A stretch of DNA of 53,527 nucleotides, from the IMG/VR virus record IMGVR_UViG_3300042922_000627, positions 1 through 53,527 of that record; one strand, given 5' to 3'. The notes under the pieces were generated by a model that ran no database searches, was not told the DNA's origin, and was given only the letters and a program-made list of their open reading frames with translations. Source of the DNA: a virus. Position numbers and translations under genes: made by a program. Positions 1 through 53,527 of this stretch are shown in pieces. Position 1 is the first letter of the stretch, and every line of letters starts with the position of its first letter.

Positions 1-127
1 CTGAAGTGCTGAGCTATTTCACTCATTTTGAGTGTATTAACATGATAATTCTCCATGCCCTTCATCAGTTGGAAATGGTTGTTTTTTACGTCTTTATATG
101 CCGGCGATGCAGTATGATGTTGCTGGA
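1..127. repeat. terminal direct repeat, left copy (circular closure)
   Basis: Bases 1-127 are identical to 53401-53527. The amidase reading frame continues through the join, so the two ends are the same piece of DNA. The length of exactly 127 matches a common assembler k-mer, so I read it as assembly overlap of a circular map and not as a packaged terminal repeat. Unique length is 53,400 bp. Confidence 0.95.
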
Positions 128-22344: not shown

Positions 22345-24309
22345 TTACCAATCGTCATAGTATTTCTTCAGAGAATTACCACTTTTCTTTTTTCGTGGCT
22401 TTTGTACCTGGGCCGATGCTGCTTCATTGGATGATGTATTACCAGGTAAAACAGCAGCGACTTTAACGCGAATATCATTTTTCGCTACTTTAAGGCGTTT
22501 ATCTATTGCATCTAGATCCGGTGATAACGCCTTGAATGCAGCAAACGCATAGTTTCGGCAATCAAGAGCTTCGTTACGTTCGTGTCCGGGTATCTTCTCC
22601 CATACCCAGGGTTGTTTCTTCTCAGTATCGTAAACAAGCCGCTCCGATAGTAGCCCTTTAAAATAAGCATCACCGTAATCATCACGCTTGGGAAAGTGGC
22701 TGTACTTAGTTCCCTCAGTCTGCACTCGGAGATTATCCATGATAATCTGTTTTCCCGCATTAACGCCTATATCATATCGCCAGCATGTTCCGATAACCTT
22801 CTTAACTCCGTTTTTGGTTACTACAATTTTCTGCTTTCGTGGTGGCGCAGTGAATGGTGCATCGTGCTTATTGCTTCCGGCGATAGCAAAAACCTTTTTG
22901 CCGATGCGCTTATAGCATTGTTGCCGGACTTCTTGTGTAAAATGGCCGCCCTCATCAGCAAACGTCATTGACAATCTCAAGCCAGATCCGTCAGAAAAAC
23001 GAAAGACATGTTCCAAAACATCGTCCAATCGGGTCCAAGTTTCCGTATCGTCAGGGCGCCCCATTATAATGCCTTTCTTAATTCCCCAATTTTCTCCGAA
23101 ATGCCCAAAACCAACAACCTCATATTCGAGACGGTCATCCTGCGTATCTACGCCACAGGTCAAAACCAGGACACCTTCTGGGAGTTCGGCGCCTTCCGGA
23201 TATTCCTCTCGCCGTGCAAGTAGGCTGTCCTCGTCCTCCAGATCGCCACGATCCTCCCATAGTTCACCGAAGCGTGTGTTATAAACGACCTGTAGTTTCT
23301 TTGAGCTCCCTATTGCATTGAGATATAGTAATATGATTGATTCCCATGAGGCCCAAGGTGAAACAAAAGCATTGAGCCAGAAGGAACGCACACCGTTCTC
23401 ATATGCTGCTGGATTCTCTGCAATCCATTTTCCAGTCTGCCGCTTCATTTCCATTTCGGAAGATATACAGCCGCATCCGGGACATACATAGGAAACGTCT
23501 GTCACCTTGTATGTTTTTTTATTTGCTACGATGATTTCCTCATGCTTATATCTAATTGAAGAGAATGCTATGTTATGATACTCTCCACAATGAGGACATC
23601 GTGAACACCACCGTTCCATTGTTCCTTCGACAAAAGAAGATTCAATAGCACTGGCATTTTTTATTGTCGGGGTAGATACCTCAACAGCCTTTGCGTTGTA
23701 GAATGTTATCTGCCTCGCTCTGGCAAGCTCCCACGGGTCACCTTCTTTTCCTGCCGATGTTGCCCATCGGTCACGCTCGTCACCGAGTATATAGCGGATA
23801 GGTTTTGACGCCAGCGAGTGAGCTTCGGTCGAGCCGCACATTGTCAAAATGCCGCCCGGGTATGTCTTTTGCAATATGGTATTGGCACTGTCCCGGTTCT
23901 TTGGGTCAGCCACCTTTGTCTTGAGTGATTTACAATCCCTTATCATCGGAGCAATTCGGAGCTTAGAGTAATCCTTTGCATCAATGGTGGTCGGGTGGAT
24001 AAACAAAATGCTACCCGGATCTTCATCGATAATGTAACCGATAGTGTTGTTTAATACTTCCGATTTTCCGACCTGTGAAGCAGACGCTACAATTATGCGG
24101 TGCACTTTTGGGTCTGTAAAGGCGTCCATTGGTCCCTGGAGGTAGGGGGTTCTGCTTGTGCGCCATGGCCCAGGTTCAGCACTACTCTCTGGTGAAAGCC
24201 TACGCTTCCTATCAGACCACTCTGAAACAGTCAGGTCTTCAGGGGGTTTCATGCCGGCGATTGCTTTTGATATCGCTGCGTTCAGCCGAAGTTCATCACT
24301 TTTAATCAT
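22345..24309 (-). CDS. large terminase subunit (GpA family)
   Basis: A 654-residue lambda gpA-family packaging motor. The ATPase domain has the Walker A-like ASASQVGKSE (75-84) and Walker B ILGDERDRW (about 175); a zinc-ribbon-like CSRCPHCGEYHN and CPGCGC follow; the nuclease domain begins LTCGVDTQDDRLEYEV (about 375). I choose ATG 24309, which overlaps the small subunit stop by eight bases. It cuts concatemers and pumps DNA. GpA-type enzymes act at cos sites, so cohesive ends are likely. Confidence 0.95.
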   Translation of the reverse strand: MIKSDELRLNAAISKAIAGMKPPEDLTVSEWSDRKRRLSPESSAEPGPWRTSRTPYLQGPMDAFTDPKVHRIIVASASQVGKSEVLNNTIGYIIDEDPGSILFIHPTTIDAKDYSKLRIAPMIRDCKSLKTKVADPKNRDSANTILQKTYPGGILTMCGSTEAHSLASKPIRYILGDERDRWATSAGKEGDPWELARARQITFYNAKAVEVSTPTIKNASAIESSFVEGTMERWCSRCPHCGEYHNIAFSSIRYKHEEIIVANKKTYKVTDVSYVCPGCGCISSEMEMKRQTGKWIAENPAAYENGVRSFWLNAFVSPWASWESIILLYLNAIGSSKKLQVVYNTRFGELWEDRGDLEDEDSLLARREEYPEGAELPEGVLVLTCGVDTQDDRLEYEVVGFGHFGENWGIKKGIIMGRPDDTETWTRLDDVLEHVFRFSDGSGLRLSMTFADEGGHFTQEVRQQCYKRIGKKVFAIAGSNKHDAPFTAPPRKQKIVVTKNGVKKVIGTCWRYDIGVNAGKQIIMDNLRVQTEGTKYSHFPKRDDYGDAYFKGLLSERLVYDTEKKQPWVWEKIPGHERNEALDCRNYAFAAFKALSPDLDAIDKRLKVAKNDIRVKVAAVLPGNTSSNEAASAQVQKPRKKKSGNSLKKYYDDW

Positions 24310-24844
24310 CGTCAGTATCCGACTTATTTCCAGTGTCCCAACTTCGCCGCTCACGAACGCGCTCATTATATTTCTTAGCGTCGTATTGATAATGCGAAAG
24401 TTCCCCCATGACCTTATGTATTTCCTTACGGATAAACTCAGCCGCCTCTGCAGGAGATGAAATAGCAGCGACATCCACCGCTAGCCTGCCCGGTAACGCC
24501 ATAAGCATACCTCGAATTGTATAAATCAAATCCTCGGTCATGGCCGCAACATCCTCTGAACGGTGCATTTTCCCCTGAAGTTCCTTAGCCTCAAGCACTG
24601 AAACAATTGCTTTAGCCTTTTTAATGCTGACGTCTGCGTCCAGCTTTTCTTTTTCGGCCGCGCTTAGCGCTTTTTCTTTCATGCGGTATTCTATATATTT
24701 TTGAACTGCGTCAGTGAGCAGATATTTGCCTTTGTCACTTTCGATGATTCCGTCTTGTGCGAGCTGCTGTATCCGTCTGCCTGTTACTCCCAAAACAGCA
24801 GCAAGCTCAGTGCCAGATACCTCGGTTTTTGTGGTTATGTCCAT
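24302..24844 (-). CDS. small terminase subunit (Nu1-like)
   Basis: A 180-residue Nu1-like subunit. Residues 8-40 are a winged HTH (VSGTELAAVLGVTGRRIQQLAQDGI), followed by a long helix with K/A/E repeats and the LPGRLAVDVA..SSP.E segment found in these proteins. It recognises the packaging site and recruits the large subunit. GAGGA site before ATG 24844. Confidence 0.9.
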   Translation of the reverse strand: MDITTKTEVSGTELAAVLGVTGRRIQQLAQDGIIESDKGKYLLTDAVQKYIEYRMKEKALSAAEKEKLDADVSIKKAKAIVSVLEAKELQGKMHRSEDVAAMTEDLIYTIRGMLMALPGRLAVDVAAISSPAEAAEFIRKEIHKVMGELSHYQYDAKKYNERVRERRSWDTGNKSDTDDD

Positions 24845-25086: not shown

Positions 25087-25611
25087 CTACAGCTTTGTTA
25101 TAAGTTCTGCCTTGCTATATGTCTTAACATCCTTTGTCATGAGTGAGAGGAAATCATCACGAGAGAATTCTGATAGCCTGAATACTTCCTCTGGTCTCAT
25201 ACCTAACTGCTTACCTATTTCATTTACTGATTTACCTTCAGTAAGTAAGCGTTGAACTATTGCTTTCATTGGGCCGAGTAGATGAGTACCACGTGCCCTG
25301 TTGTGTGTGACCGTACCATAAATATCACCAGCTGAATCTGTATGCTTCACTATGACAACGGGTACTTTACCACTAAGCTTTGTTATCAGTGGTTCTTCTC
25401 CTGACACCATCCACCGATGAAAGCCGTCGATGATGGTCATGTCCGGTCGTACCACTATAGGAAGCGTCCAACCGTTGGTGAGTATGGACTGTTTGAGCAG
25501 ATTCAAGTTCTCGCGTGTGACCTTGTTTGGGTTATAGTCATTAGCTTTAAGCCTACTCCTGTCTATCCATTGAAGCGAACCAAGTGGTGCAAATATATCT
25601 ACATCATGCAT
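25087..25611 (-). CDS. ParB/Srx-superfamily protein, IbrB-like
   Basis: A 174-residue protein with a ParB/sulfiredoxin fold: W.DRSRLKANDYNPN, LLKQSILTNGWTLPIVVR, then the active-site-like IDGFHRW (61-67), where true ParBs have GxRR. The C-terminal helices (AIVQRLLTEGKSVNEIGKQLGM) are HTH-like. Pairing with the upstream PAPS-reductase-like gene matches the IbrA/IbrB pairs known from enterobacterial prophages, named there as regulators. GGAGG lies eight bases before ATG 25611, inside the upstream gene. It may bind or modify nucleotides; the reaction is unknown. Confidence 0.8.
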   Translation of the reverse strand: MHDVDIFAPLGSLQWIDRSRLKANDYNPNKVTRENLNLLKQSILTNGWTLPIVVRPDMTIIDGFHRWMVSGEEPLITKLSGKVPVVIVKHTDSAGDIYGTVTHNRARGTHLLGPMKAIVQRLLTEGKSVNEIGKQLGMRPEEVFRLSEFSRDDFLSLMTKDVKTYSKAELITKL

Positions 25612-26758
25612 TTGCTTCGCCTCCTTTCCGGAAGCGCTTGGCATATTCTGCATAAGAGCAGTATATATCCTGGTATATAGCGCGTAATGTTCTGAGCTTT
25701 GGATCACCGGCTATAAGTCCCTCATATATTTTGCGATAGTCACGTGGTCTTGCCATGCCATCCATCTCAATGAACAATTTACGGTAGCGTTTGGCCACAG
25801 CCACTTTATGCGGGGTATTGAAATACTCTTCAGGACGCTCAAACAGCATTTCCATGAGTAATGCCCGGTAGTCCTTTATGTCATCACCTTCAAGCTCTTT
25901 CCTCTTTCGGGAAGTGCGCCTGAACATTTCACTGTCCCAATACAATACAGCCAGGTATGCATTCGGCTCTCTGCGTATGACCTTCTCCATGAGTGTCGGT
26001 TCATATTCACCCATATGGACCAAGCTCGGTACCGTATCCACTGAAAAGAACTGTGACACTCGGAGCATATTCCGATTTGTTCCTGATTGGTACATATGCA
26101 GGTAAATGACCGGAATGTCGACCTTTTCATTTTTCAGATACAGCCAAACGTCAGATGTCTTCCAGTCATATATGGGATAAATCATATTTTTGTTGGTGAT
26201 ACCGCCTGCGCCCATATTAAGCGCTGACATATACTGTAAGCGCTGTACTGACTCGGAAGTCCTCACACCCGTTATCATGATTCCATCCATAGTGACTTTC
26301 GGTAGGAAAGTTTGATAACTGTCTACGCGTGGTCGTAGCTTCGGATGATTTAGCAGGGCGAATGGAGGCGGCCGCCTTATCCATATATCCTGCTTTTGTC
26401 TGTCCCAGCATATGAACGACTCATCGCTCGTAAGCTCATTCAGACAATTAAAATGTTTTACCTCAACACACCACCACTGGAATTTGGCGCCGGCGAGTAG
26501 GAATTTCTTTCTCCATACTTTGACGGTTTCTTCAATACAATCGAAGATTGCTTCCTCGTCTATAAAGAGGACTGTCAGGAGAGAGGCATCTATCTCTCCT
26601 GAGTGGATCAGCTTCAGAGTAAGGTCAGCCAGACACAAACTGTCTTTACCTCCGGAGAATGACATATACACCGGTACACCATTTGAAAATACATTTTTTA
26701 GCCTTTTCCTTGCAACGGTTACTACATCCATGTCGGATTGCACACGCTTTATAGCCAT
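25604..26758 (-). CDS. PAPS-reductase-like ATP pyrophosphatase, IbrA-like
   Basis: A 384-residue PP-loop ATP pyrophosphatase. The SGGKDS loop is at 35-40, followed by V.FIDEEAIFD, then GVRTSES at 164-170 and YPIYDWKTSDVW at 194-205, all typical of PAPS-reductase-fold enzymes. The large C-terminal helical part (IbrA-type) exceeds the classical CysH length. The family adenylates a substrate, often for sulfur transfer; DndC of DNA phosphorothioation shares this fold. No cysteine desulfurase is encoded here. It overlaps ParB-like genes on both sides. DNA or nucleotide modification is a hypothesis. Confidence 0.88.
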   Translation of the reverse strand: MAIKRVQSDMDVVTVARKRLKNVFSNGVPVYMSFSGGKDSLCLADLTLKLIHSGEIDASLLTVLFIDEEAIFDCIEETVKVWRKKFLLAGAKFQWWCVEVKHFNCLNELTSDESFICWDRQKQDIWIRRPPPFALLNHPKLRPRVDSYQTFLPKVTMDGIMITGVRTSESVQRLQYMSALNMGAGGITNKNMIYPIYDWKTSDVWLYLKNEKVDIPVIYLHMYQSGTNRNMLRVSQFFSVDTVPSLVHMGEYEPTLMEKVIRREPNAYLAVLYWDSEMFRRTSRKRKELEGDDIKDYRALLMEMLFERPEEYFNTPHKVAVAKRYRKLFIEMDGMARPRDYRKIYEGLIAGDPKLRTLRAIYQDIYCSYAEYAKRFRKGGEANA

Positions 26759-27342
26759 ATCCGCTCACCACATTTCTGGCAGAGGATATACTTGCGCTTC
26801 TCTTCCGCAGGTTCGGAAGGAGGGACATATTGCTCGGCGGTTTGCGCAGCTGCTTCCTCCTGAGCTTCGTATTTATCCCTGGTTTCCTTGATGTCGTTCT
26901 TGCGGCTCTCGTCAATAGTGCCGTATTCCTGCAGTGCTATTCCTGCCTCGTCTGCTTCCATGACGATGGATTTCAATAAATCCTCTTCAAAGCCTGGAAT
27001 ATCAAGGTCGTCTTTTAGCTCCAGGATAAAAGCATCGAACGTAGCCAGGTCATCGACACCCAAGTCGAATACTCTGTTGTCTGCCAACATCAACTTTTTC
27101 TTTCCCGATTCTGTCAGGCCAGATACAATATAGCAATCCGCTTCTGTTCTCCCCAGAGAACTGAGGGCTTCATACAAACCATTGCCGGCCAGTATCACAT
27201 TGTCCTCGTCGATGACGATGGGGCGGATCTGGTCGAACATTTCTATTGATCGTCTGAACTCATGGAGCTGTTTGTCAGTATGCAAACGCACATTACGCTC
27301 CGGCTTTTTGAGATCAGCCAGCTTTTTCTTGATTATCTTCAT
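26749..27342 (-). CDS. ParB N-terminal-domain protein
   Basis: A 197-residue ParB/Srx-type protein: LHTDKQLHEFRRSIEMFDQIRPIVIDEDNVILAGNGLYEAL (about 20-60) replaces the usual G(N/H)xR box with AGNGLYEA, then LADNRVFDLG (about 86-95), a motif seen in ParB domains next to phage DNA methylases. The C-terminal end (CQKCGERIWL) has a single CxxC, maybe half of a zinc site. It begins inside the stop of the symporter and ends inside the start of the PAPS-reductase gene, so the four proteins are made from one message. Confidence 0.8.
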   Translation of the reverse strand: MKIIKKKLADLKKPERNVRLHTDKQLHEFRRSIEMFDQIRPIVIDEDNVILAGNGLYEALSSLGRTEADCYIVSGLTESGKKKLMLADNRVFDLGVDDLATFDAFILELKDDLDIPGFEEDLLKSIVMEADEAGIALQEYGTIDESRKNDIKETRDKYEAQEEAAAQTAEQYVPPSEPAEEKRKYILCQKCGERIWL

Positions 27343-28715
27343 GCCCTCACCGCCTTTCGGGATGCGAGGACAGCCACTATGCCGCTCATGAGCACAGTGG
27401 TTAAACTTCCGATTGTCTTATACAGAGCAATATTGAATATATTGCCGTAAGCGAATATCGGCAAGCCTAAGCATAATGAAATCAAGACACCAATAAAAAC
27501 GCCCCGAGCAGATAACTTCTTGCCGAGTAATGTCATTACTGTTGGCAAGAGAGTCGATGCCCTGAGCGTACCATAAAACAAAAACAACCATGTTACTGTC
27601 AGGCCTGGTATATTGGAAATCGCTATTGCTACTACCAGCAGCATTAACATAGTAAGCTTTGACTTTTTTATGCTGCTACCAGTCTTGAGGTCCGACGTCA
27701 TGGATGCAGCTGCACATAGATTACTTGATACTGTGGATAGCAATCCAGATAGTATCATAAACAGGAATGGTATAAGAACCCACGCTGGGAAGATGGAAGA
27801 TATAAACTCGAAATTTACCATTCCCACATCAGAGGCTTTGAAGCCTGAGCCTGCTGCTATGAATCCCATCGCTCCCATTGCTATGGGTACGAGGGCAAAT
27901 ATTAACGCTCCAACAAAAAACGCCTTACCTATATGCTCCTTCCTGATTGAAAACACTCGTTGCCAAAAACATTGGTCTCCAAATGGTCCAGATGTCAGTC
28001 CTATCGCTGTAGGTAATCCGAAACCGAGGAATACCGCCAGCCCTGTTTGTGATGTCAACGAGGTCATGTTACCATTGATGGAGCCGAGTCCTTGAATTAG
28101 CGCAGACGCTCCACCATTCATTTTAAGCGCCCAAGGCACAAGTAATATACAACCACCTAAAATGATTATCATTTGCAAGGTGTCAGTTGCAACTGCCGCC
28201 TTAATGCCTGAAAACTGAGAGTATGAATAAGCAATCACAGCGAGCAGCATTGTCATAACCCAGAAGGGAAGTCCTGTTATTAGCGAAAGTATTTTACTCC
28301 CGGCCAGTAGTTGCACCGCTGTAGATAGAATAGCTAATGTCCCAAGCTGGAATGAATAAATGCCCTTCACTTTATTGCTTTGATATTTTTCTCCCATATA
28401 TCCGGATAGAGTAATACCCTGTGGAAATTCATTCCGGATCCGTTTTGCAAATGGGATAAATAACATAAGGCAAAGTACATTCGGTACCAGGAACCAGAAC
28501 ATTCCCGGTATACCATTTTGATATGCCTGCTGTCCTGAAACAAACAGTGCAGGTGCCCATACCCATGTTGCAGCAATACTCATGGCCGAAATCCCAAATG
28601 GAATTTTCCTGTCGGCTACATGGAACCTCTCAGCATTGGCCGTCCATTTAGTGAATATCACGGTCGTTGCTATCATAATAAAAGCATAAATAAATAATAC
28701 AAGAAAACCGTTCAT
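27339..28715 (-). CDS. sodium/solute symporter (SSS/SLC5 family)
   Basis: A 458-residue inner-membrane transporter with about 12-13 hydrophobic segments. SSS marks include ISAMSIAATWVWAPALFVSG (about 44-63), GYMGEKY, and AVATDTLQMIIILGG (about 173-187), where the family couples Na+ binding to import. The substrate cannot be read from sequence; the N-terminal AATW.WAPAL region resembles urea/DUR3-like members. A full-length SSS transporter is very unusual in a phage. A GGAGG site is preceded by a structured leader, and the stop overlaps the ParB-like start. Confidence 0.92.
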   Translation of the reverse strand: MNGFLVLFIYAFIMIATTVIFTKWTANAERFHVADRKIPFGISAMSIAATWVWAPALFVSGQQAYQNGIPGMFWFLVPNVLCLMLFIPFAKRIRNEFPQGITLSGYMGEKYQSNKVKGIYSFQLGTLAILSTAVQLLAGSKILSLITGLPFWVMTMLLAVIAYSYSQFSGIKAAVATDTLQMIIILGGCILLVPWALKMNGGASALIQGLGSINGNMTSLTSQTGLAVFLGFGLPTAIGLTSGPFGDQCFWQRVFSIRKEHIGKAFFVGALIFALVPIAMGAMGFIAAGSGFKASDVGMVNFEFISSIFPAWVLIPFLFMILSGLLSTVSSNLCAAASMTSDLKTGSSIKKSKLTMLMLLVVAIAISNIPGLTVTWLFLFYGTLRASTLLPTVMTLLGKKLSARGVFIGVLISLCLGLPIFAYGNIFNIALYKTIGSLTTVLMSGIVAVLASRKAVRA

Positions 28716-28716
28716 G

Positions 28717-28824
28717 TAAAAAATCCTCCTTATTTTTTGTTTCCCGCTGCCGGCTGCTGGCGAACAGACACGACCCGGTACTGACTTTGCGTAAAGGAGA
28801 AACGCAGAGCCAAAATCCTCCTTT
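28717..28824 (-). promoter_or_regulatory. structured 5' leader with alternative hairpins
   Basis: The minus-strand leader holds the first Shine-Dalgarno AAAGGAGG (28824-28817), an exact anti-SD CTCCTTT (28799-28793) and a second SD AAGGAGG (28731-28725). The anti-SD lies entirely in the loop of a competing hairpin (TGCGT 28806-28802 with ACGCA 28792-28788). Pairing of CTCCTTT with either SD would block translation; forming the small hairpin restricts it. Folding is inferred by eye. Confidence 0.5.
28730..28813 (-). CDS. short upstream ORF / possible leader peptide of the symporter operon
   Basis: Between two GGAGG sites an open frame starts at TTG (28813) or CTG (28807) and encodes up to 27 residues containing QYRVVSVRQQPAAGNKK. 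Its stop TAA overlaps the AAGGAGG of the symporter. It is much richer in GC than its surroundings. TTG lies only three bases after its GGAGG, CTG nine bases, so the start is uncertain. Its placement suggests a leader peptide whose translation controls the operon. Not proven to be translated. Confidence 0.45.
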   Translation of the reverse strand: MALRFSFTQSQYRVVSVRQQPAAGNKK

Positions 28825-28825
28825 C

Positions 28826-28858
28826 AAATAAAATAGCGACTCCTTTTTAGAAGTCGCT
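28826..28858 (-). terminator. terminator-like hairpin (attenuator candidate) before the symporter operon
   Basis: Minus-strand stem AGCGACTTC / GGAGTCGCT (9 bp, one GU pair, loop TAAAAA), followed by ATTTTATTT. No room for a promoter exists between it and the first SD, so island transcripts starting upstream must pass through it. Confidence 0.65.
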
Positions 28859-28883
28859 TGCTTATGTGGGATTTTACAGTTTA

Positions 28884-28948
28884 ATGCTATCAAATATCAC
28901 TCGGGACATCAATACGGGGATTCGGGACATTAGGGGTTATTCGGGACA
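28884..28948 (-). promoter_or_regulatory. promoter with three TGTCCCGA direct repeats
   Basis: The 8-mer TGTCCCGA (minus strand) occurs at 28948-28941, 28929-28922 and 28908-28901, 19 and 21 bp apart, so on one helical face. A promoter-like TTGATG (28912-28907), 17-bp spacer and TAGCAT (28889-28884) overlaps the third copy. This looks like an operator array controlling the symporter island. Confidence 0.55.
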
Positions 28949-29553: not shown

Positions 29554-30348
29554 TCATATTATGTTCATTTTTATTGTTGGCATTTCTTTTTCAATCTTTT
29601 TATTGAAGAATTCATTTTTGTTCTTTAGAACTATAGGAATACAAATAATTACACATATAGTGGTTGCTAAAGCATAAAACAAAACGCCTTCTCTACTTTG
29701 AAGAAGTGTAACAGAACCGACATTAACGCCAAAGTGGAACAATATCATGCATAATAAATTCCCACTGGTTTTCATATATACCCATGCCATAAAAATCGAA
29801 AAACATATTATCAACATTACAAACAGAAAAAAGCCCGATAATCCATAAGTAAATTTGCAGTGCCATATACCCCATAATGAACCAACGACTATTGTACTGT
29901 AAAACATATTATGCTTTTTTGCAAACATAGGTAATAGATAACCTCTCCAGCCGATTTCCTCTGTAATACATCCGAGCATTGCAGTAATAATTGTGATAAC
30001 ATATCCTAACGAAGTATCTTTCCAAATCACAAATTGATTTCCCATCGAAGATATTATCAGTGATGAAATTAAGATTACAGCCACAGGCAAGAATAAGGAT
30101 ACTAACATCCATAACAGAATTTTTTTTGTTTTAACAGAATTCCAATTCATTTTCACCCAAGCAGACCAATTATTTAACATCCCGCAAATGAGAACAAGTC
30201 CGATTGTAGGTGCATATTGTGGTGAAATAAATGCATTGTTTGTAAACATATATGCCGCTCCCAAAATAATTGTTATTAAAAAGGTAATCACAAAATAAAT
30301 AGCTATTATGTATCTTTTAAGAAAAGAGTTCTCGGTTTTTGTCTTCAT
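29554..30348 (-). CDS. CPBP/CAAX-type intramembrane metalloprotease
   Basis: A 264-residue membrane protein with about eight helices. The family motifs are clear: EEIGWRGYLLP (about 131-141; the glutamate pair and arginine), WGIWH (about 160-164) and a later FHFGVN (about 215). CPBP (Abi-like) proteases cleave membrane peptides; in bacteria they process or give immunity to peptides. As a phage moron it could alter the lysogen surface or block other phages. It has its own promoter (30450-30422) and terminator (29506-29476), and a GGGGG ribosome site. Confidence 0.9.
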   Translation of the reverse strand: MKTKTENSFLKRYIIAIYFVITFLITIILGAAYMFTNNAFISPQYAPTIGLVLICGMLNNWSAWVKMNWNSVKTKKILLWMLVSLFLPVAVILISSLIISSMGNQFVIWKDTSLGYVITIITAMLGCITEEIGWRGYLLPMFAKKHNMFYSTIVVGSLWGIWHCKFTYGLSGFFLFVMLIICFSIFMAWVYMKTSGNLLCMILFHFGVNVGSVTLLQSREGVLFYALATTICVIICIPIVLKNKNEFFNKKIEKEMPTIKMNII

Positions 30349-30522: not shown

Positions 30523-31110
30523 CTACTTGTTTACCTGAAATATCCACAAATAGCTGTGATTCTTTCTGGCATGCTTTTGCTCATATACCGGTTTTGGTCT
30601 TTTTGTATTTATCAGAATGAACAAATCTTCTGCATACATTCCAAGTTCTTTCTCAGCAATATTTTTTATTTCTTCGTGTGTCCAATACTGCTTACCACCG
30701 TAAATTTCATCTTGGCACTTACATAAAATATAGCCTTTACTCCTGATTGCTCTTTTTAATTCGCATAGTCCATCCCTGTACATTTGGACAATATCATTAT
30801 GAGTTGTAAACCTGGTAGTATTGTAGCAGTGTTGCATACCTTTCAGCTCAAGCCTTGCATATGGAGGGTCAATCGCTCCGTGGTCAAAAGAATTATCCTT
30901 GTGCGGCAGCTGTCTAAAATCTATGCCCATTTTTATGTCGGTACCAACAATTTCATATTTGCTTTTATCAATGTCTTTCCAAAAAACTCCCCTGCCATAT
31001 GTAACATCTGCTATTCTGCTACCCTTTTCAAAATATAGGTTAACAGCATTTTTTATTAACCCTGAATTGCATCCGTGATGCACTGTATAAATAATCTTTT
31101 CTTCTTCCAA
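30523..31110 (-). CDS. DNA methyltransferase (DPPY type)
   Basis: A 195-residue SAM-dependent methylase of the N6-adenine/N4-cytosine class: motif X-like HHGCNSGLI (about 11-19), motif I ADVTYGRGVFW, acidic GTDIK, catalytic DPPY (about 99-102), and the end motif HARKNHSYLWIFQ. Motif I lacks the usual FxGxG and reads VTYGRG. No target domain is obvious, so it is a compact solitary methylase. I choose TTG 31110, eight bases after AGGAGG; the ATG at 31158 has no site. It may protect phage DNA or tag sites for regulation. Confidence 0.85.
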   Translation of the reverse strand: MEEEKIIYTVHHGCNSGLIKNAVNLYFEKGSRIADVTYGRGVFWKDIDKSKYEIVGTDIKMGIDFRQLPHKDNSFDHGAIDPPYARLELKGMQHCYNTTRFTTHNDIVQMYRDGLCELKRAIRSKGYILCKCQDEIYGGKQYWTHEEIKNIAEKELGMYAEDLFILINTKRPKPVYEQKHARKNHSYLWIFQVNK

Positions 31111-31163
31111 ACTTTTCACCTCCTGGTTGGTGCGCAATAGACTTATGATCCGACGCATCTTTC

Positions 31164-36469: not shown

Positions 36470-37312
36470 TTAGAACAATGTCAATTGTTCATATTTGCCT
36501 TTCTTCAGGCTATTCTTATTTTTGGGTGATTCACTCACAATTTCAGGTATTTCATTCACTGTTTTTGCCGTTTCGTTCACACTTTCTGTTATTTTAAACA
36601 GTTCTTTGATAGTACGCCGCCAATGCCAGATATCAAGAAAGTAGAAAGGGGTGTACCAGACATTTTGCTCGGACAGTGATTGGGTCGGGGGAGTGGTAAG
36701 AGTATTTCCGACGATGATGTACCCGGGACAACCTAATAGGCTGAGCTGAATATAACACATCATAGCGGCGGTGAAGTCGATGTCTTGGGCTACAAATAGG
36801 ATATGCTGCTGATAGTTTATGCCTTGGCGTTTAGCTTCGTTGGCAAAAGCGATAAGGAGAGCTCCAGCGCCACAGCAGCAGTCATTGACTGATATGTAAC
36901 CTTTCTTACTGAGTTCGGCTTCAAGATTACCGGTGCTTATCATCGACATTGCTTTGCATACATCGTAAGGTGTAAAGAATTGACCGTTGCGGTCGTTTCC
37001 AAGCTCCAGCCTCATGTACAGCTCGCCAAGCAAGTCCTGTTCCTGATTTTCCTCCAAGGCATTTATGACTTCAGCGAGCATTGAGGAAAACTGCTCTAAT
37101 TCGACAGACGTGTATTTTTTAGAGATATCGGAATAGAGCTTTTCTCGTTCCTCACGCCGTTCAACATCTGCCATCGAAAGTGTGCAGGCTGCCATTGTCA
37201 CAAAGTCAGACCAGATTATCCATCTGTTGTGTTTCCCGGAGTGAGTTAATCCATCAAAGGTTTTAACTATAGCTTTCTGATGGCCATTTTGTAAACGTGG
37301 AGGGTTTGACAT
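36470..37312 (-). CDS. N6-DNA methylase-fold protein lacking the NPPY motif
   Basis: A 280-residue HsdM-like protein: RLELGNDRNGQFFTPYDVCKAMSMI (about 103-127) and the SAM loop NDCCCGAGALLIAFANEA (about 142-159). Where active methylases have (N/D)PP(Y/F), this protein has YIIVGNTLTTPP. The first 40 residues carry a phage-specific NRWIIWSDFVTMAA helix. Length is about half of HsdM. It may have lost catalysis and bind DNA or SAM only. ATG 37312 chosen because a GGTGA site lies at five bases. Confidence 0.82.
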   Translation of the reverse strand: MSNPPRLQNGHQKAIVKTFDGLTHSGKHNRWIIWSDFVTMAACTLSMADVERREEREKLYSDISKKYTSVELEQFSSMLAEVINALEENQEQDLLGELYMRLELGNDRNGQFFTPYDVCKAMSMISTGNLEAELSKKGYISVNDCCCGAGALLIAFANEAKRQGINYQQHILFVAQDIDFTAAMMCYIQLSLLGCPGYIIVGNTLTTPPTQSLSEQNVWYTPFYFLDIWHWRRTIKELFKITESVNETAKTVNEIPEIVSESPKNKNSLKKGKYEQLTLF

Positions 37313-37313
37313 T

Positions 37314-37673
37314 CTATTCACCGCCATTTCTTTCTTGTCCAGATTTAAACTCCTTCCACTTTCTCCTTTCAGCTACTTTATTTAAAGCACTTTGAGCATC
37401 ATCAAACCTCATGTGATATTGCGTGTTCAAAATACTTTCCCTGAATTCCTTGTAGTCCTCTCCCGGCTTACGTCTGACTATTTTAAAAGTATCATTAGCG
37501 GAAATGGGGCACATTACTTTGTATGTGCATCCCCGGTTGTCGATGTAGGCCTTTACAAACCGACATTGGGTATCTGCAGGGTGCAATGTTCCTTTTATAC
37601 CAGGACATACTGTCTGTGGTGGAAACTTTATATTCGGACACATGCAGCACCGCATTTTTAAATATTCAGGCAT
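37314..37673 (-). CDS. uncharacterised Cys-rich early protein (119 aa)
   Basis: Starts PEYLKMRCCMCPNIKFPPQTVCPG; further cysteines follow (ADTQCRFVKA, CTYKVMCPIS), suggesting a zinc site. The C-terminal half is a charged helix (EFRESILNTQYHMRFDDAQSALNKVAERR). GGAGG is eight bases before ATG 37673. Not recognised. Confidence 0.65.
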   Translation of the reverse strand: MPEYLKMRCCMCPNIKFPPQTVCPGIKGTLHPADTQCRFVKAYIDNRGCTYKVMCPISANDTFKIVRRKPGEDYKEFRESILNTQYHMRFDDAQSALNKVAERRKWKEFKSGQERNGGE

Positions 37674-51134: not shown

Positions 51135-52409
51135 ATGGAGTATTTAGATTTAAATTTTAATGATCATGATTTTCTCAATAGAAAAACATTTGTTACTAAC
51201 ATTATGAGAGTAATAGAAGGGTGGAATCCTAAAAGTCAAGAAAATAAATCCATAGTTTTTTCTCTCGATTCTTCATGGGGATCAGGAAAAAGTTATCTAC
51301 TAAATATGTGGAGAAATTGGATACTAACTGATTATGAAAATAAAAATTATGCGGTAGCGTACTATAATGCCTGGGAGAATGATGATTTTAATAGTTCATT
51401 TACTCCTCTTGTTTATTCATTACAAGACATAAAAATTAATGACTCTAATGAAACAGTTTTCAAAAACTTTGAAGAGAGATCCAAAGCATTTCTTAAATCA
51501 TGTGCAATCGCATTGGTAAAAGATGGTATAAAAAAAGTTTTTGGTGATGAAACAGCAAATCTAATTGACAAAGGCATTGATGCAGCTTCTCAAAAGAAAG
51601 TGGAAGATTATTTTGATAGTTTTAGATCGTTTAATGATCAGAAAGAAAAGTTTACTGAAGCATTAAGAAATTTAATCCCTGAGGATGGGAAACTTATAAT
51701 TTTTATAGATGAGTTAGATAGATGCCGACCGACATTCGCTGTAGAAACTTTAGAAGTCATTAAACATTATTTCAATATTGAAAATATAGTGTTTGTTATG
51801 GCTATCGATTTAGTTCAATTATCACATTCAATATCAACTTTATATGGAAATGATATGGATTCATCTGGTTATCTACGGAGATTTTTTGATTTTAATATTA
51901 ATATTCCATCTGCGGATATAAGAGAATACACTCTTAATTTATTATCATCTTATTCTTTAAACCATTCTAATGATTTTATAGATATGGTAATAAATTTATA
52001 TGATAAATTAGGTTTGTCGCTTAGAGACGTTAATAAAATAACAAATAATTTGTCAGTTTTTCTTCTATATTATAAAGAAGTAATCGCTAAAATTGAATAT
52101 ACGCGCTTAATCCCAATAATAGAAATGTATCTATATTTTATGATTCTTAAGTATAAATATCCTACAATATACAGAACTATACTTAACACTGAATTTTTGT
52201 TTTATAATAATACTCCAAAATATGGAAGTGTGATAGAAAAGAAATATATTGTATCACCTAATATACAAAATTTTATGAAGGAATTAGAAAACGGTAATGC
52301 ATTAAGGATTGATGGTGTCCTTATAAAAAAATATGGATTTGAGCATGAAAACACTGTAGACGTGTCTTTTTCACAGCATATAGAAAGAACTATAGAAATG
52401 TTCAGTTAA
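51135..52409 (+). CDS. KAP-family P-loop NTPase
   Basis: A 424-residue KAP NTPase: Walker A GSGKS (49-53), YYNAWENDDF typical of the family (about 76-85), Walker B LIIFIDELDRCRPTF (187-201) and the arginine-rich YLRRFFDF (about 252-259). KAP proteins are membrane- or defence-linked ATPases; no transmembrane insertion is evident between Walker A and B here, though a helix near 120-160 is hydrophobic in part. The gene is much more AT-rich than its neighbours and stands alone on the plus strand. It probably came by transfer and may give exclusion of other phages. GGAGG site. Confidence 0.85.
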   Translation: MEYLDLNFNDHDFLNRKTFVTNIMRVIEGWNPKSQENKSIVFSLDSSWGSGKSYLLNMWRNWILTDYENKNYAVAYYNAWENDDFNSSFTPLVYSLQDIKINDSNETVFKNFEERSKAFLKSCAIALVKDGIKKVFGDETANLIDKGIDAASQKKVEDYFDSFRSFNDQKEKFTEALRNLIPEDGKLIIFIDELDRCRPTFAVETLEVIKHYFNIENIVFVMAIDLVQLSHSISTLYGNDMDSSGYLRRFFDFNINIPSADIREYTLNLLSSYSLNHSNDFIDMVINLYDKLGLSLRDVNKITNNLSVFLLYYKEVIAKIEYTRLIPIIEMYLYFMILKYKYPTIYRTILNTEFLFYNNTPKYGSVIEKKYIVSPNIQNFMKELENGNALRIDGVLIKKYGFEHENTVDVSFSQHIERTIEMFS

Positions 52410-52931: not shown

Positions 52932-53527
52932 TTACTTTCCTCCATAACTTTTTGCTATTTTTATAATCAGAGCTTTAAAGGCTGGGTCTATGTCCTTCCT
53001 TTTCAGCCAGTATGAGTAGCTTGAATCTATTTTTTCAACAACGATCTGAAGGGCCATTTCAAATGTCAACGGCTCTTGCATTGCAGCTTTTATCAAAGGT
53101 ATAAAGTTCTGCTCTGCAGCTGCCTTTGAATTTCCCCCGAAATACTTTGTTCCCGGGCAAGATTTATTTTGTACCCAGCAATGGTATATAAGCGTTGAAG
53201 TGGACGGAGTTATATTGAATTTTTTACAAAGCAGAGCATTAAGCAATATAATGCTTTGCTTTTGCTCCTCTGTCATATTGTCAGAATCGAAGTTGCCCAC
53301 ATTTTCAATTGTAATGGAGTTTCTGTTCTGATCTCCGAGGAATCCGCCTCCGTCTTTGGAAAGCGGCCGGCCAACACATATGGCTCCATCAGGAAATGTA
53401 CTGAAGTGCTGAGCTATTTCACTCATTTTGAGTGTATTAACATGATAATTCTCCATGCCCTTCATCAGTTGGAAATGGTTGTTTTTTACGTCTTTATATG
53501 CCGGCGATGCAGTATGATGTTGCTGGA
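52932..53527 (-). CDS. endolysin amidase, C-terminal main part (continues at 218-1)
   Basis: The main part of the amidase; its 5' end lies at 218 across the circular join (bases 53401-53527 equal 1-127). The conserved blocks RNSITIENVGNFD (Glu), STSTLIYHCWVQNKSCPG (the second zinc His and the Cys) and an EQN.IPLI helix are present, with the first zinc histidines in the N-terminal piece. No separate cell-wall-binding domain is obvious; the last 60 residues (EPLTFEMALQIVVEKIDSSYSYWLKRK) may bind the wall. Confidence 0.92.
   Translation of the reverse strand, partial: QQHHTASPAYKDVKNNHFQLMKGMENYHVNTLKMSEIAQHFSTFPDGAICVGRPLSKDGGGFLGDQNRNSITIENVGNFDSDNMTEEQKQSIILLNALLCKKFNITPSTSTLIYHCWVQNKSCPGTKYFGGNSKAAAEQNFIPLIKAAMQEPLTFEMALQIVVEKIDSSYSYWLKRKDIDPAFKALIIKIAKSYGGK
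53401..53527. repeat. terminal direct repeat, right copy
   Basis: Identical to bases 1-127; see the left copy. It should be removed when the map is circularised. Confidence 0.95.

Follow-up and report, generated by a model that had tools for sequence, protein, structure and literature searches.

Why would a phage keep a sodium/solute symporter in one operon with two ParB-fold proteins and a protein annotated as a PAPS reductase, immediately ahead of its terminase genes? The question was raised by the virus record IMGVR_UViG_3300042922_000627, which was analysed over its whole length of 53,527 nt (positions 1-53,527, hereafter the window). With two ends that overlap by 127 identical bases, the window resembles a complete circular phage. 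It encodes a serine recombinase and a CI-type repressor, and no tRNA gene was found in it. The four genes described from the sequence in the original prediction were confirmed as one operon, located on the minus strand, with overlaps of 4 nt (SSS/ParB1), 10 nt (ParB1/PAPS) and 8 nt (PAPS/IbrB-like) (Table 1). The motifs AGNGLYEA, SGGKDS, GVRTSES and DGFHRW are all present. The observation thus holds, and the interpretation that accompanied it is partly supported by the results below. The start of the IbrB-like gene was set to the ATG at 25611 instead of the GTG at 25707, and its relatives begin about there. The matches to PF00474 and PF01507 are above the Pfam gathering score and the match of the IbrB-like protein to PF02195 (ParB_N, 2.5e-5) is just under it.

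Table 1. Positions of the cassette, its leader, the adjacent terminase genes and other methylase-type genes in the window.
Feature	Positions	Strand	Matches and remarks
Putative promoter, -10 box TAAAAT, -35 weak	28871..28876	-	Scan match, by itself not above shuffle expectation
10-bp hairpin then U-rich tract, terminator-like or 5' stabilising	28835..28858	-	Similarly placed hairpin visible in most other leaders
Leader segment	28793..28824	-	Shine-Dalgarno-like AAAGGAGG (28817-28824); anti-Shine-Dalgarno UCUCCUUU (28793-28800)
SSS-family (sodium/solute symporter) transporter, 458 aa	27339..28715	-	PF00474 2.1e-18; phrog_20720 601 bits
ParB1, stand-alone ParB/Srx-fold protein, 197 aa	26749..27342	-	phrog_620 2.3e-42; phrog_498 (DNA methyltransferase) 4.3e-26
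PAPS, IbrA-like PP-loop ATP pyrophosphatase annotated as PAPS reductase, 384 aa	25604..26758	-	PF01507 6.9e-12; phrog_2302 1.1e-84
IbrB-like ParB-fold protein with TIIDGFHRW, 174 aa	25087..25611	-	phrog_2159 7.6e-66
Terminase small subunit, immediately downstream of the cassette	24302..24844	-	phrog_57 3.5e-29
Terminase large subunit, GpA type, downstream context	22345..24474	-	PF05876 9.4e-75; PF20454 2.5e-74
N6_Mtase-like gene	36470-37327		PF02384
Methylase-like gene	30523-31158		

A complete transporter in such a message had been thought very rare in phages. This was wrong: when the same gene order was sought elsewhere, more than 180 distinct homologous cassettes were found in viral contigs and in genomes of gut Clostridia, with the fixed order transporter-[PPX]-ParB1-PAPS-IbrB-terminase. 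The bracketed gene, PPX, lies between SSS and ParB1 and codes for another PP-loop protein, of about 260 aa; it is absent from the window. The conservation of this order in so many distinct cassettes excludes a chance association. Scans anchored on the symporter gave 80 loci in viral contigs and 67 loci in genomes, the latter coming nearly all from gut Clostridia (Lachnospiraceae, Oscillospiraceae and relatives). Among these SSS-anchored loci, 109 display the arrangement SSS-PPX-ParB1-PAPS-IbrB and 20 the arrangement of the window, SSS-ParB1-PAPS-IbrB; the remainder consists for the most part of contigs cut off prematurely, with a few incomplete or decayed cassettes. The cassette of the window was also recovered at 100% identity from a 53.5-kb contig of a Eubacterium MAG. 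Per genome the cassette is uncommon, the IbrB marker being detected in 4 of 299 Lachnospiraceae genomes, two of which were seeds.

The PAPS protein of Faecalibacterium phage FP_Taranis was used as the query of a further scan, which avoids selecting on the symporter. Among its best 80 loci, 60 carry a transporter of the FP_Taranis gp35 family, 10 carry SSS and 10 carry neither; in the last 10, the contig itself begins within the cassette or at its border. Far from never being linked to the other three genes, a transporter is thus present in 70 of the 70 testable loci among these best 80, which bears out the functional link drawn in the original prediction. SSS and gp35 were never seen together in one of these 80 loci. 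Over all scans, the distinct PAPS sequences are associated with SSS in 118 cases (a count inflated by the SSS-anchored scans), with the gp35 type in 64 and with no transporter in two, and nine are cut by a contig end. The two loci without transporter are L246, which is decayed, and L150 (phage PJN03), which has a different gene order. The linkage of the transporter is near-obligatory. In the literature, prophage 14 of C. clostridioforme LM41 contains genes of PHROG 424 and 2302 two positions apart, filed as host metabolism (PMC11318856), so that the cassette had apparently been encountered before without being recognised. No description of the transporter-linked cassette was found in the literature searched, whose coverage excluded preprints and most subscription journals.

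The SSS protein scores 66.9 bits against PF00474 (curated cut-off 22.8). By profile, its nearest relatives of solved structure are the DUR3 urea symporters (3.6e-23) and the SLC5A7-type choline transporter (1.9e-18). The helix SGLLSTV is a candidate Na2 site, in which the Ser is conserved in 124 and the Thr in 122 of 124 sequences; this pair would correspond to the Na2 ligands of the SSS family. The symporter genes of the window and of locus L002 differ at 61, 21 and 195 sites of the first, second and third codon positions, a distribution that shows purifying selection. The gp35 protein of FP_Taranis is annotated just as "transporter membrane protein", and its family (334 aa) has neither a PHROG match nor a Pfam match that passes the cut-off. 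The closest structure to its AlphaFold2 model (pLDDT 85, pTM 0.81) is the human choline transporter CHT1, a member of the SSS family (TM 0.70, E 8e-5), and the gp35 profile aligns with the SSS profile (hhalign 91%, E 1e-6). The transporter position therefore retains a divergent SSS-type (LeuT/SSS) carrier even after replacement of the sequence. The possibility that a second, unrelated transporter had been recruited independently was rejected, since the profile comparison makes gp35 a distant SSS relative. Urea and choline, suggested by the PDB neighbours, are a lead to the substrate and nothing more, and from the kinship with DUR3 and choline transporters amines are a reasonable first guess.

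The cassette spans the interval from the leader and a small regulator gene to the terminase, and contains no other conserved gene besides PPX. It adjoins at least three unrelated kinds of terminase: the GpA type of the window, the type that follows PF10668 small subunits and at least one more. The cassette genes co-vary with each other (r 0.62-0.82) more than with TerL (0.26-0.59). In cassette-less phages with the same terminases, the content of this slot was taken from TerL-anchored scans. It consists of ParB-N6/N4 methylase fusions (L242, L243, L288, L300 and L330), C5 methylases (L288, L300 and L330), ParB-amidoligase fusions (L304 and L306), a free amidoligase (L300), ParB with Mom, an established DNA-modifying enzyme (L336), ParB with WbqC and PIG-L (L326), or an ordinary IbrA/IbrB pair (L282). 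Nothing recognisable or modification-like was detected in the slot of L238, L251, L254, L315 and L316. The replacements are mostly known or suspected DNA-modification genes, and the interval between the presumed late leader and the terminase can be regarded as a swap site for DNA-modification modules.

On the whole records, C5 or N6/N4 methylases above cut-off are found in 2 of 23 cassette phages against 5 of 12 relatives, a weak depletion (Fisher p 0.03, or 0.07 after removal of one near-duplicate). The window encodes two further methylase-type genes (Table 1), and thus has candidates for modification other than the cassette. These genes, the weakness of the depletion and the empty slots of relatives were counted against a role in DNA modification.

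We give an even chance to the following explanation: a late-expressed mobile cassette modifies the phage's own DNA with a substrate brought in by the transporter and attached by an AMP-forming PP-loop enzyme. This DNA-modification reading is based on the enzymes that replace the cassette in the slot (ParB-methylases, C5 methylases, Mom, amidoligase, WbqC/PIG-L), on the fixed order and the near-constant presence of a transporter, on the LeuT/SSS-type carrier kept despite the replaced sequence, and on the covariation of the cassette genes beside several terminase types. A change of DNA before packaging had been proposed originally, and the slot replacements support it.

Control by the leader had also been proposed. 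The leader of the window contains, in order, the TAAAAT box, the hairpin, the Shine-Dalgarno-like sequence, the anti-Shine-Dalgarno sequence and the real Shine-Dalgarno. The motif TAAAATYYTA is present in 98 of 160 loci, at a median distance of 98 nt upstream of SSS. Among 135 leaders, 101 carry the anti-Shine-Dalgarno CTCCT ahead of the symporter start (7.3 expected), and the pairing probability of the Shine-Dalgarno is 0.80 in symporter leaders versus 0.52 with shuffled upstream sequence (n=135). Control by the leader is real and exceeds chance, and its specificity for the transporter had to be rejected: the leader is common to SSS, gp35-family, ParB-methylase and ParB-amidoligase genes. It therefore governs the first gene of the operon whichever gene that is, and gives no evidence for a ligand-sensing riboswitch. 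Rfam at gathering thresholds returned zero matches, hence no known riboswitch that could name the transported ligand. From its location after the regulator gene and before the terminase, we infer that the promoter is a late promoter.

A conserved structured leader at the head of the operon would suit a control of transcription or replication, in which the cassette provides IbrA/IbrB-type co-activators of late genes and the transporter acts as a nutrient or signal sensor, or as an importer for the switch. IbrA and IbrB are annotated as co-activators of prophage gene expression (an annotation that was counted against the DNA-modification reading), and the PAPS and IbrB-like genes are an adjacent, overlapping pair matching phrog_2302 and phrog_2159. 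We consider this explanation unlikely, since the same leader precedes slot genes of cassette-less phages, and is hence uninformative about the transporter, and since the genes replacing the cassette mostly encode DNA-modifying enzymes.

Concerning the PP-loop proteins, the motif SGGKDS is conserved in 193 of 194 PAPS and in 114 of 116 PPX sequences. The catalytic motif ECGxH of PAPS reductases was found in none of 310 sequences (0/116 PPX and 0/194 PAPS), which makes sulfate reduction by either protein unlikely. The cysteine dyad of DndC was not recovered in PAPS either: a single Cys column is conserved in at least 90% of sequences (98%), and CC and CxxC occur in 15 and 12 of 194 sequences, respectively. 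An earlier argument against sulfur chemistry, the absence of any conserved Cys, was softened in view of this column. In the AlphaFold2 model of PAPS (pLDDT 81), the PP-loop domain matches FAD synthase, APS/PAPS reductase, NcsA and TilS, and the approximately 150 C-terminal residues found no match in the structure comparison. PAPS displays 24.7% identity with IbrA of phage PhiR5_2. PADLOC matches to BrxP and DndC (about 60 residues covered) and to MTase_II (the ParB part alone covered) were discarded for membership. Most loci have a gap of about 780 bp between SSS and ParB1; the lack of an ORF there in some of them was a filter artefact, as tblastn finds an intact PPX. PPX is missing in the window and in about a third of cassettes and is therefore not essential; this absence was also counted against the DNA-modification reading.

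The labels of these proteins in Pfam and PHROG (PAPS reductase, auxiliary metabolic gene) and the filing of PHROG 424 and 2302 in the LM41 survey (PMC11318856) are in line with an auxiliary metabolism, where the transporter and the "PAPS reductase" raise the sulfur or nitrogen supply of the host during infection or in the lysogen. This is quite unlikely, given the lack of ECGxH and a position in the terminase operon, away from the lysogeny genes; it also leaves the two ParB-fold partners unexplained. The sulfur role envisaged in the original prediction is weakened by the missing ECGxH and by the single near-invariant Cys in place of the DndC dyad, and its idea of host supply in the lysogen fits poorly with a cassette that heads the terminase operon.

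The two ParB-fold proteins differ in their nucleotide motifs. In ParB1, AGNGLYEA replaces the box-II Arg motif of the canonical ParB CTPase, which is found in none of 174 sequences (GNGLY instead), and the protein ends with a CxxCG knuckle, the CxxC tail being conserved in 172 of 174 sequences. The motif DG[FY]HRW is kept in 175 of 179 relatives of the IbrB-like protein. The box-II Arg is needed for NTP binding in the ParB folds tested (PMC12704722). Together, these motifs suggest a division of labour between a DNA-guiding ParB (ParB1) and a nucleotide-using ParB (IbrB-like). The ParB1 profile matches the ParB part of the L288 methylase fusion with 179 bits; ParB1 thus looks like a methylase ParB domain set free, which also argues for the DNA-modification reading. 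Anti-defence or the exclusion of competitors, by conversion of an imported precursor into a soluble nucleotide-like inhibitor or by altered nucleotide pools, seems very improbable. ParB-fold proteins can bind several NTPs (PMC12704722) and nucleotide depletion has been proposed for them (PMC10853773), but ParB1 lacks the Arg concerned and the slot neighbours target DNA. A modification of host or phage tRNA by TilS/NcsA-type enzymes with an imported amine, suggested by the presence of TilS and NcsA among the structural neighbours of PAPS, is the least probable, as ParB1 is tied to DNA methylases and the window has no tRNA genes.

Under the DNA-modification reading, the SSS transporter would import a small molecule undersupplied by the host, the candidates being amines or amino-acid-like solutes in view of the kinship with DUR3 and choline transporters. 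The PP-loop protein, aided by PPX in most relatives, would turn either the imported molecule or the base into an activated AMP intermediate, and the two would then be joined by the PP-loop protein(s). ParB1, devoid of the nucleotide motif and akin to the ParB domain of phage methylases, may steer the complex to DNA, and the IbrB-like protein, which retains the DG-x-HR motif, would be the NTP-using partner. The modification would take place while the genome is readied for packaging.

Two precedents argue for such a mechanism. CmoY, which is asparagine-synthetase-like, uses an AMP-forming reaction to couple glycine to the carboxymethylcytosine of phage DNA, and ParBc genes accompany CmoX (PMC12783734). 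The CmoA-CmoX-CmoY system (5-carboxymethylcytosine-glycine; PMC12783734) shares with the cassette, as proposed here, a phage AMP-forming ligase that puts a small amine on DNA with ParBc nearby, whereas the cassette has PAPS-reductase-class PP-loop proteins and a transporter, without the C5-methylase handle. PF00145, expected for a C5-methylase of the CmoX type, was detected in 1 of 23 cassette phages and not in the window. In the 7-deazaguanine pathway, QueC is the PP-loop enzyme. The DNA-deazaguanine clusters of phages include preQ0 transporters, as in Vid5 and EC151 (PMC8310023, PMC6266253). These phages share with the cassette, under the reading proposed here, a transporter that supplies a precursor for DNA modification alongside a PP-loop enzyme. 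Their transporter is of the VUT/COG1738 family, whereas that of the cassette has the SSS/LeuT fold. TGT/DpdA (PF01702) was absent from all 23 cassette phages (control positive in 14 of 14 genomes), and no que genes were seen with the cassette.

Three other systems share parts of the cassette. Phage and prophage IbrA/IbrB pairs have the same adjacent PAPS-reductase-like PP-loop and DG-x-HR ParB proteins, but ordinary pairs such as that of L282 lack the transporter and ParB1, which the cassette fixes together in one operon. Dnd/Ssp phosphorothioation (DndB and DndC) also combines a ParB-superfamily protein with a PAPS-reductase-class PP-loop protein. Unlike it, the cassette has a transporter and ParB1, lacks the DndC cysteine dyad, and has no DndA, DndD or DndE in its operon, although DndA could be host-encoded. 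Finally, the phage ParB-DNA methylase fusions (phrog_498; PMC12704722) occupy the same slot, with the same leader and a homologous ParB domain, and the cassette has PP-loop protein(s), IbrB and a transporter in place of the methylase. By analogy, the cassette would unite the ideas of the CmoY type and of the preQ0-transporter type, using different protein families and without their hallmark enzymes.

More tentatively, the cassettes may represent a widespread, undescribed class of hypermodification in phages of gut Clostridia, in which a LeuT-fold importer brings in a substituent from the gut that the PP-loop enzymes and the ParB pair attach to DNA before packaging. Surveys of phages often place "PAPS reductase" genes among those for sulfur or host metabolism, a label that is probably wrong for the PAPS family of the cassette. 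The isolated phage FP_Taranis of Faecalibacterium prausnitzii carries the cassette and opens the idea to mass spectrometry. If it is true, the pairing of a transporter with an AMP-forming enzyme would define a DNA-modification chemistry that is new, and with it a new way of protecting viral genomes, many gut phages would be given a reason for carrying an importer, and the protection of these phages would depend on a metabolite derived from the diet or from the microbiota.

Between the window and the homologous cassette locus L002, the sodium/solute symporter (SSS), the IbrB-like protein and the terminase large subunit (TerL) display identities of 88%, 82% and 82%, respectively, whereas the values fall to 51% for ParB1 and 63% for PAPS. 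The locus is therefore a mosaic, in which the middle of the cassette (ParB1 and PAPS) has been exchanged independently of the other genes.

In relative phage loci without the cassette, the slot ahead of the terminase genes is occupied by other gene sets. L304 (3275-4660) and L306 (5127-6512) each encode a fusion of a ParB domain with a putative amidoligase (PF12224), which may be a distinct system for modifying DNA or protein. In L336 (982-2351), a gene of the Mom family (PF25680) directly follows a small ParB-like gene just upstream of the terminase. The slot of L326 (3213-5976) contains a PIG-L deacetylase, a ParB-like protein, a WbqC-like protein and one unassigned protein, a set that looks like another modification module.

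The ends of the window (1-127 and 53401-53527) share 127 identical bases, and the record is thus probably a complete circular genome or an excised form. The phage also carries two further methylase-like genes, a membrane protease and a KAP-family NTPase that is a candidate defence or exclusion gene.

Features of the window with their matches and locations
Feature	Position	Match	Location
Conserved leader	28717-28876		head of terminase operon
CAAX/Rce1-like membrane protease	29554-30348	PF02517 (3e-16)	upstream of leader
Methylase-like gene	30523-31158	phrog_24333	
Methylase-like gene	36470-37327	PF02384 (41 bits)	
KAP-family P-loop NTPase	51135-52409	PF07693 (3e-33)	near lysogeny end

The leader is composed of a 5' hairpin, a decoy Shine-Dalgarno and an anti-Shine-Dalgarno. 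No matching family was detected in Rfam. A leader with these three parts is common to many Clostridia phages, where it precedes whichever gene is first, and it is possibly an undescribed phage leader RNA.
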